Source of the DNA: Fimbriimonadaceae bacterium
GTDB taxonomy: Bacteria; Armatimonadota; Fimbriimonadia; Fimbriimonadales; Fimbriimonadaceae
NCBI GenBank assembly: GCA_027492935.1
Contig: JAPUDU010000279.1
Location: 1 to 38,243 of the forward strand
Direction of reading: 5' to 3'
DNA length: 38,243 nucleotides
Of the stretch, positions 36,866-38,186 are shown in pieces. The notes under the pieces were generated by a model. That model saw only the letters and a program-made list of their open reading frames with translations, searched no databases and was not told the origin of the DNA. The stretch's first letter is position 1, and each line of letters opens with the position of its first letter. Position numbers and translations under genes: made by a program.

Positions 36866-37507
36866 TTATGGAAGGATGCCAGTTGAATCAAAAATAGTGA
36901 TTCGTTGGGTGCCTCTTTCGCGGATGATTCCGACTAGGTAGCCGAGCATGTCTCCTTCGGCGGGGAATGCGTTGTAGCTCGAATTAATGGGGTTTAGGAT
37001 GTAGGTGGTGCCGTCATGTTTGAGTTGTTTGACGGTGATGAGATTCTCTTTTGAACGAAATAGAATTACGTGCCCGATTTTAGGGACTTCGGTGCGTTGA
37101 AAGACACAGATGTCGTGAGGTTCGAGAAGGGGGAACATTGAATCGGATGAGATTTTGCAAGCAAAACGACCTCGCGCATCGCCCATTTCTGGGGGTACGA
37201 ATTCAAACGTTTCACTCTCGAAGGGGTCTGTCCAATCCACAGGATTACTAGCGGCAATATATCCGATGAAGGGGATAGGGACGAGAAGTTGGGAGGCGGG
37301 AATGAGCGGGGGGCCAACTTCTTGTTGTTTAGGGAAGCCAAGGCTTTCAAGGTTTGCGATGATCTCTCGGTTGGGGGTGCTGGTGCCGTTCTCGAAATTG
37401 GCGAGCCGTGATCGTTTGATTTGGAGTTTGTCGGCGAGTTCTTGTTGGGTGAGGGATTGAGTTTTCCGCCAGTTTTTGAGTCTGGTGGGGATATCTTGCG
37501 TGTTCAT
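36866..37507 (-). CDS. S24 peptidase-type repressor with HTH (LexA/CI-like)
   Basis: A 213-residue repressor. The N-terminal helix-turn-helix is LTQQELADKLQIKRSRLANFENG (about 19-41); the C-terminal S24 domain has SSDSMFPLLEPHD with catalytic Ser123 and LITVKQLKHDG with Lys160. The self-cleavage bond is normally Ala-Gly; here the corresponding stretch reads GYIAASNP (Ala-Ser at 86-87). Cleavage may be slow or absent, or occur at another bond. It is divergent from the 37576 sigma gene; the 68-bp gap holds operator-like repeats, so it likely represses that gene and itself. Confidence 0.9.
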   Translation of the reverse strand: MNTQDIPTRLKNWRKTQSLTQQELADKLQIKRSRLANFENGTSTPNREIIANLESLGFPKQQEVGPPLIPASQLLVPIPFIGYIAASNPVDWTDPFESETFEFVPPEMGDARGRFACKISSDSMFPLLEPHDICVFQRTEVPKIGHVILFRSKENLITVKQLKHDGTTYILNPINSSYNAFPAEGDMLGYLVGIIRERGTQRITIFDSTGILP

Positions 37508-37528
37508 GTCAAGAATTTTACCATAAAT

Positions 37529-37572
37529 TTGACAAAATACTTGACAATTAGTAGAATTTAGTCTACTATAAT
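37529..37572 (+). promoter_or_regulatory. overlapping promoter and operator-like repeats between S24 repressor and sigma genes
   Basis: TTGACA at 37529-37534 and 37541-37546 are direct repeats (TTGACAA), 12 bp apart; the second is a perfect -35, 17 bp above TACTAT (37564-37569), which sits 6 nt before the sigma ATG at 37576, a leaderless start. TAGTAGA-ATTTAG-TCTACTA (37549-37568) is a perfect palindrome lying between -35 and -10. On the minus strand TAAAAT (37520-37515) is 7 nt from the repressor ATG. Confidence 0.6.
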
Positions 37573-37575
37573 TGC

Positions 37576-38085
37576 ATGAGTAATTCTCAAAATTTCGTTG
37601 GACTAGATGGGTGTTTACGTTGGAGTTCGGACATGGAGGAGTATGTTCGGCGGGCGACTCGCACTTGGTGCTATCGGCTTGGGATTCGAGGCGAGGACAT
37701 CAAGGATTTGGAGCAGGATTCTGTGATGATGGCTTGGGAGCGGGTTGGCAATGGGAAGGTTCATTACAAGGAAGGGCTGTGGTTTTTGGCTCGTAATGCA
37801 GTGCTTGATTTTCGGGCTCGGAAGGCACGTATTCAGACTTCTGAGCTGGACGAGATGTCATCAAGAGATTTGTCAAACCCGCTTGACAAATTAGTGTTAG
37901 AAGAGATTGAGGAAGAGTTCCCGGAATTGATGTTGATGGCTCGGGCGCGGGTGGACGGTTTTGAGTGGGAGTTGATTGCGGAGAGCTTGGGGGTTTCGAG
38001 TGGCACTTTACGGGTTCGGTTTAGTCGGATGGTTAAGAAAGCGGCAGAGTTTTATGGTGAAGAAATTGAAGATTTGATGAGGTAA
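37576..38085 (+). CDS. sigma-70-family (ECF-like) sigma factor
   Basis: A 169-residue sigma factor. Region 2 is at about 24-75 (EEYVRRATRTWCYRLG, DIKDLEQDSVMMAWERV, WFLARNAVLDFRARK) and region 4 at about 117-160 (FEWELIAESLGVSSGTLRVRFSRMVKKA). It has no Shine-Dalgarno and follows a promoter directly. Divergent from the S24 repressor, so a repressor/sigma switch is likely. The codons from 37868 include the palindrome ATTTGTCAA/TTGACAAAT, the same half-site as in its promoter. Confidence 0.85.
   Translation: MSNSQNFVGLDGCLRWSSDMEEYVRRATRTWCYRLGIRGEDIKDLEQDSVMMAWERVGNGKVHYKEGLWFLARNAVLDFRARKARIQTSELDEMSSRDLSNPLDKLVLEEIEEEFPELMLMARARVDGFEWELIAESLGVSSGTLRVRFSRMVKKAAEFYGEEIEDLMR
37868..37891. promoter_or_regulatory. 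intragenic palindrome matching the upstream half-sites
   Basis: ATTTGTCAA (37868-37876), 6-bp spacer, TTGACAAAT (37883-37891). The half-site TTGACAA also occurs twice in the promoter at 37529 and 37541, so this may be a second operator inside the sigma gene. Confidence 0.45.
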
Positions 38086-38126: not shown

Positions 38127-38159
38127 TAAAAAATTGTGCCCCGGGGATTTAACCGGGGC
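38127..38159 (-). terminator. terminator of a minus-strand gene entering from the right
   Basis: GCCCCGG (38138-38144), 8-nt loop, CCGGGGC (38153-38159); on the minus strand the stem is followed by a run reading ACAATTTTTTATT. It also could end the sigma transcript, but the T-run is on the minus side. Confidence 0.6.
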
Positions 38160-38186
38160 CGTTTGCTTTCTGGAGAGTAAATACTT

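Follow-up and report, generated by a model that had tools for sequence, protein, structure and literature searches.

What would a repressor gene and a sigma-factor-like gene control when they diverge from a short shared promoter region, and why should operator-like sequences lie both in that region and within the sigma gene itself? These are the questions raised by a locus of an Armatimonadota lineage contained in the window, i.e., the whole stretch of 38,243 nucleotides that was analyzed. Eight congeneric genomes, labeled G000 to G007, were compared, with G000 being the genome of the window. The reading toward which we lean is that the locus is the control switch of a domesticated phage element resembling a gene transfer agent (GTA), in which an ECF-like sigma factor would be gated by both LexA and an S24 repressor. 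The features on which the argument is built are the following.

36866 to 37507, minus strand: S24 gene, encoding a repressor of 213 aa with an XRE helix-turn-helix (HTH) and a Peptidase S24 domain (LexA/CI-like).
37529 to 37535, plus strand: first TTGACAA of the gap, a direct repeat with the copy at 37541, 12 bp apart.
37541 to 37546, plus strand: TTGACA, −35 hexamer of the sigma promoter; read as TTGACAA, it is the second half-site copy in the gap.
37549 to 37568, no strand assigned: TAGTAGAATTTAGTCTACTA, predicted LexA/SOS box, TAGTAGA-N6-TCTACTA, spanning the promoter spacer and the −10 hexamer.
37564 to 37569, plus strand: TACTAT, −10 hexamer after a 17-bp spacer, conserved in the alignment.
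37576 to 38085, plus strand: sigma-like gene, encoding a divergent ECF-type sigma factor of 169 aa.
37868 to 37891, no strand assigned: ATTTGTCAA-N6-TTGACAAAT, intragenic operator candidate inside the sigma gene, with cores at 37870-37876 and 37883-37889.
38137 to 38163, no strand assigned: GCCCCGGGGATTTAACCGGGGC, rich in GC and hairpin-like, in the space where the sigma and portal genes converge; a possible terminator judged from its sequence.

The repressor matches HTH_3 (1.8e-9) and Peptidase_S24 (1e-11) in Pfam and a transcriptional repressor in PHROG (3.7e-20), and it is 22% identical to the host LexA. Its orthologs, 58-72% identical in six congeners, each lie divergent to the sigma gene. 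Residues S123 (SDSM) and K160 (TVK) are the catalytic Ser/Lys and are invariant with LexA in the alignment, so that the dyad of this S24-domain repressor is intact and its self-cleavage is putative; the cleavage position is Ala-Ser in all seven orthologs, rather than an Ala-Gly or Cys-Gly bond, and this we count against our best explanation. The sigma protein gives only sub-threshold matches to Pfam Sigma70_r2 and r4_2 and a match to TIGR02937 (4.9e-6) that is below the cut-off of that model, while a profile of its orthologs, 40-69% identical in six congeners, matches the ECF SigE/SigL structures of the PDB at 5e-6 to 3e-5 (SigE, 5e-6). A later start of this gene, at ATG 37633, is ruled out by the conserved residues RW upstream of it. 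The divergent pair occurs in G001, G002, G003, G005, G006 and G007, no strong sigma homolog was found outside the genus among 151 relatives, and the public collection holds two relatives, PNMZ01000001.1 and CP021423.1, "Armatimonadetes bacterium Uphvl-Ar1" (same genus). As a side observation, the synonymous divergence between G006 and G007 is 0.09 for sigma vs 0.44 for the repressor and 0.68 for the large terminase (L008/L009); recombination or extra constraint may be involved.

The gap between the two genes measures 68 bp, and TTGACAA can be read in it twice, as had been claimed; the two copies have the same orientation, which makes them a direct repeat rather than a palindrome, and the second doubles as the −35 hexamer. 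All seven orthologous gaps contain TTGACA, a TACTAT-like −10 and a GTAGAC-type palindrome between them, with TTGACA-N17-TACTAT in G000, G003, G005, G006 and G007, and close variants in G001 and G002. An upstream TTGACAA copy, 10-12 bp before the −35 copy, is also found in G003, G005 and G006; it is TTGACAT in G007, TTGTCAA 13 bp upstream in G002, and absent in G001. TTGWCAA would then serve as the −35 hexamer and, in addition, as a candidate site for binding of the XRE-S24 repressor. The sigma ATG lies 6 nt beyond the −10 hexamer, a layout from which a leaderless sigma mRNA is predicted.

The palindrome across the promoter spacer, which is present as originally described, is very probably a LexA/SOS box, and this is the best-supported step of the circuit. 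The motif was first spotted by comparing the lexA and sigma promoters, and for this reason the fair tests are those in which sigma takes no part. In one of them, GTAGAC ranked first among all 6-mers of the SOS upstream regions with the sigma promoter left out; GTAGAC or its complement is present in the promoters of lexA (8/8), dinB-type (8/8), readable imuB-like (5/5) and recA genes (5/8), and GTAGAC is present in all seven sigma gaps. In the other, a matrix trained solely on the lexA, recA, dinB and imuB promoters of the eight congeners placed the sigma-promoter site at the top of 76,452 window positions (16.5 bits vs 11.0 for the next), and its best site in 7/7 orthologous sigma gaps was this same box, at 13-19 bits. 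When TAGTAGACN7TAC was searched for, sites appeared upstream of genes for uvrB, a ribonucleotide-reductase type (ATP-cone), a LigD phosphoesterase and mraZ; in the genomes this pattern is rarer than its reversed control, with 5-11 vs 22-34 forward matches. The host has a true LexA (LexA_DNA_bind) and RecA, and the host motif in the sigma promoter points to membership of the LexA/SOS regulon. A first reading of the TAGTAGAC palindrome as the operator of the S24 protein was rejected, as the motif recurs at lexA, recA, dinB, imuB and uvrB. Given that the spacer palindrome has the form of this genus's LexA box, the sigma gene is predicted to belong directly to the SOS response, irrespective of the action of the S24 protein. 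The analysis thus yields a LexA box for the genus, TAGTAGAC..CTAC, and a literature search found no paper describing one. In addition to GTAGACA, several lexA leaders (L122-L129) have a GTCTGGCAGAC palindrome that follows the predicted −10.

The original prediction of a phage-like or stress switch with upstream and intragenic operators stands as regards sites on both sides of the start of a sigma-like gene, but its two palindromes belong to different systems, the spacer one being of LexA type. The intragenic pair is found at the place indicated, and it is conserved in orthologous loci, where its absence would have spoken against an operator. The codons of its arms, TCA and CTT GAC AAA (S, L, D, K), are identical in five sigma orthologs, while the spacer codons, N and P, vary among the same five; merely 10 of 85 conserved degenerate codons are synonymously identical across these orthologs, which gives a hypergeometric p of about 1e-4 for the invariance of the four arm codons; when each lineage is represented by a single genome, p is 1.6e-4 to 4.9e-4. 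The exact core TGTCAA-N6-TTGACA has five occurrences in the eight genomes (~23 Mb), four of them in this ~0.7-kb locus: three within sigma (G000, G003 and G005) and one in the promoter of sigma in G002, a distant ortholog, while the fifth is elsewhere in G003. The three sites within sigma genes share a common descent, and the G002 promoter site is the independent one. A genome-wide regulon, for which a search with TTTGTCAA/TTGACAAA had been suggested, did not emerge: the sites come down essentially to one locus, with no exact second copy in the genome of the window.

The distance from promoter to intragenic site is 342 bp here and 352 and 331 bp in other lineages, i.e., 32.6, 33.5 and 31.5 turns, so that helical phase is kept, as a DNA loop would need; three lineages only are behind this spacing support. 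In lac-type looping, the promoter operator has a partner within the coding region, a few hundred bp farther down and in phase with it on the helix, and the arrangement here is similar, with looping suggested by the spacing only. That the S24 protein binds TTGWCAA, with such looping, is in our judgment about evenly balanced: G006 and G007 have a recognition helix unlike the others and retain the site, which weakens the assignment.

The intragenic pair might also be no operator, the product of an SNPLDK amino-acid motif and chance, with the gap copies being merely a −35 hexamer. This sub-claim, which is compatible with the other explanations discussed below, draws on the identity of TTGACA with the sigma-70 −35 consensus, on the direct orientation and variable spacing (10-13 bp) of the gap copies and on the small number of independent lineages, three. 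We consider it rather unlikely, because the synonymous invariance is restricted to the arms (p about 1e-4 to 5e-4), helical phase is retained, the G002 promoter has a perfect pair, and the flanks of promoter and intragenic sites match in a species-specific way, e.g., in the 16-mer ATCCACTTGACAAAAT common to both in G006. A role of the intragenic TTGACA as a promoter was ruled out, with no −10 at 16-18 bp on either strand.

The circuit that we propose from these elements would work as follows. In an undamaged cell, LexA would occupy the box that spans the spacer and −10 of the sigma promoter. The XRE-S24 repressor, encoded divergently, would hold TTGWCAA at the −35 as well as some 340 bp farther on, within the sigma gene, and would probably loop the DNA when bound at both sites. 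Upon DNA damage, the RecA filament would inactivate LexA, and perhaps the S24 protein too, so that both locks open. The ECF-like sigma would then be made and would transcribe neighboring and dispersed phage genes, namely those for holin, endolysin, small and large terminase (TerS and TerL), portal, prohead protease, HK97-type capsid, connectors and tail, and the cell would make DNA-packaging particles and then lyse.

The phage genes are indeed close by. Packaging and lysis genes start about 330 bp beyond the sigma gene, outside the window, where portal, TerL, TerS and an 82-aa ORF run toward it in convergent orientation; contig C252 joins C279 via an 11-bp overlap inside a holin-like gene, which is thereby complete in frame; on C252 lie the ORFs for prohead protease, HK97 capsid, connector and tail, which diverge from the packaging operon. 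The chromosomal neighborhood (dus, glycosyltransferases) is shared across the genus. In G000 the phage genes form one contiguous cluster, while in G003 and G005 the capsid operon lies 1.2-1.6 Mb from the sigma/packaging locus (the two loci being at 1.17 and 2.73 Mb in G003, and at 1.49 and 2.76 Mb in G005), in G006 and G007 housekeeping genes stand between TerL and portal, and in G001 the packaging genes are scattered among housekeeping genes. The portal homolog of G001 (L045:4859-7309) has 816 aa, about twice the usual length.

Is this, then, simply a remnant or defective prophage, inducible by SOS and run by an ordinary phage switch, that is present in several related species and not domesticated for gene transfer? 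HK97-type head genes, holin and endolysin, a CI/LexA-like repressor adjoining late genes, the contiguous cluster of G000 and a TerS of Sf6 type that may still recognize DNA would all suit such a view. Nevertheless, we regard it as unlikely: the element keeps the same neighborhood throughout the genus, its genes are intact though split over distant loci in other species, and dN/dS is 0.03-0.14 for the regulators and structural genes, indicating purifying selection on all genes tested. Moreover, no replication genes were recognized with the element, and integrases are distant from the loci: the nearest is 264 kb away in G003 and about 45 kb in G007, the one exception being a partial match, below threshold, in G005 at about 20 kb from its capsid operon. 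The closest phage homologs have ≤42% identity, and IMG/VR held none.

In G004, sigma, terminase and capsid are all missing, and a deletion scar (L118:6716-10576) contains a glycosyltransferase, a remnant of the repressor (residues 114-213), a PEP-CTERM gene and dus; the genes beside the scar (glycosyltransferase, PEP-CTERM/dus) flank the element in other species, and the element was lost as a unit. Sigma probably controls the phage genes, although inspection by eye of the regions upstream of the structural operons revealed no promoter motif that they share, so that this step rests on neighborhood and co-occurrence. The same lack of a shared motif, together with the generic ECF type of sigma, could be explained if the sigma/S24 pair governed a general SOS stress response, with a regulon that has nothing to do with the phage genes and an adjacency to them that is incidental. 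G002 would agree with this, as it has the pair and no detected TerL or capsid, a point counted against our best explanation; the G002 contig ends there, and an endolysin fragment adjoins the pair. This fragment, the joint absence of pair and structural genes from G004 and the confinement of strong sigma orthologs to the genus, as far as found, make an incidental pairing improbable.

The element, as read from its genes, fits the description of GTAs given in a review, where a GTA holds mainly DNA packaging and structural genes (PMC11841831): here these are TerS, TerL, portal, protease, MCP, connector, tail-region ORFs, a holin-like gene and endolysin. It occupies several loci in G003, G005 and G001, vertical inheritance is indicated by genus-level synteny and accompanied by the low dN/dS, and self-mobilization genes are absent from the element. 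Known GTAs also share, as a trait and not as a definition, the loss of the TerS DNA-binding domain (PMC11841831). In contrast, TerS here matches Sf6_terminase over residues 6-108 of 127 and retains the Sf6-type architecture, which counts against our best explanation, and for this reason the element is called GTA-like and not filed as a GTA. A gene-transfer function appears somewhat favored.

A phage-derived device of another kind, e.g., a bacteriocin-like killing particle or a capsid compartment, has a precedent in PBSX of Bacillus subtilis, a defective prophage whose sigma-like Xpf is linked to lysis (PMC4243946). The two systems share a defective phage element with a sigma-like late activator; unlike PBSX, the repressor here has an S24 domain, LexA control is predicted to be direct, and a PBSX-like tail region was not recognized. 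Such a device is quite improbable, given that terminase, portal and capsid are all under purifying selection, suggesting DNA packaging, and that clear tape-measure or contractile-tail genes were not recognized.

Among the closest known systems are also GTAs themselves. In the GTA of Caulobacter crescentus (CcGTA), the repressor RogA acts on the activator operon gafYZ, with GafZ having a sigma-factor-like HTH (PMC11150451), and there, as proposed here, a repressor gates a dedicated activator of a domesticated phage cluster and peripheral genes (PMC11150451, PMC9632790). In our locus, unlike in CcGTA, a sigma factor itself is predicted as the activator and the repressor is one with an S24 domain; the activator promoter itself contains a LexA box, a second site is intragenic, and the structural genes are only distantly homologous to known phages. 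The GTAs of Rhodobacter capsulatus and Dinoroseobacter shibae are likewise multi-locus elements with LexA linked to control: LexA sites were predicted in silico at the D. shibae cluster, and the effect in R. capsulatus passes through cckA (PMC6473078). Here, in contrast, LexA is predicted at the sigma gene, and no CtrA/GafA/quorum-sensing arrangement was seen. With lambda CI and LexA-type S24 repressors, the S24 protein shares an N-terminal HTH, a C-terminal S24 fold, the Ser/Lys dyad and several operators near a divergent promoter; it differs from them in the Ala-Ser cleavage position and in having one operator candidate inside the target gene.

Outside the Alphaproteobacteria, only a few genera are known to have GTAs, and detecting them from sequence is difficult (PMC11841831). 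A literature search found no paper on one in Armatimonadota; this would be the first GTA-like system of the phylum, and a candidate that comes with a predicted inducer (DNA damage), activator and operators. If true, particle production would be a direct, programmed part of the SOS response, tying DNA damage to gene-transfer particles. The full claim, a GTA in a phylum without a reported one, run by an ECF-like sigma that is dedicated to it and held by two locks independent of each other, a core-promoter LexA box and a looping S24 repressor, is put forward tentatively, with belief falling slightly below doubt.

Some minor observations concern relatives and other genes. Genus g4 (L103, L105, L119) also has the structural cluster, where a single fused ORF encodes both protease and capsid and no sigma/S24 pair lies nearby, and this absence of regulators is counted against our best explanation. 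A LexA-like box (L171:1502-1588) precedes a gene that matches NACHT weakly and below threshold; this gene may serve in defence and be linked to SOS. Finally, a TerL homolog, usually one per genome and mostly of 30-37% identity, is present in 79 of 112 relatives (L106-L117, L120, L121, other genera of the order); at the loci inspected these homologs lie among housekeeping genes, without homologs of this capsid cluster, and they possibly represent an older element dispersed across the order.
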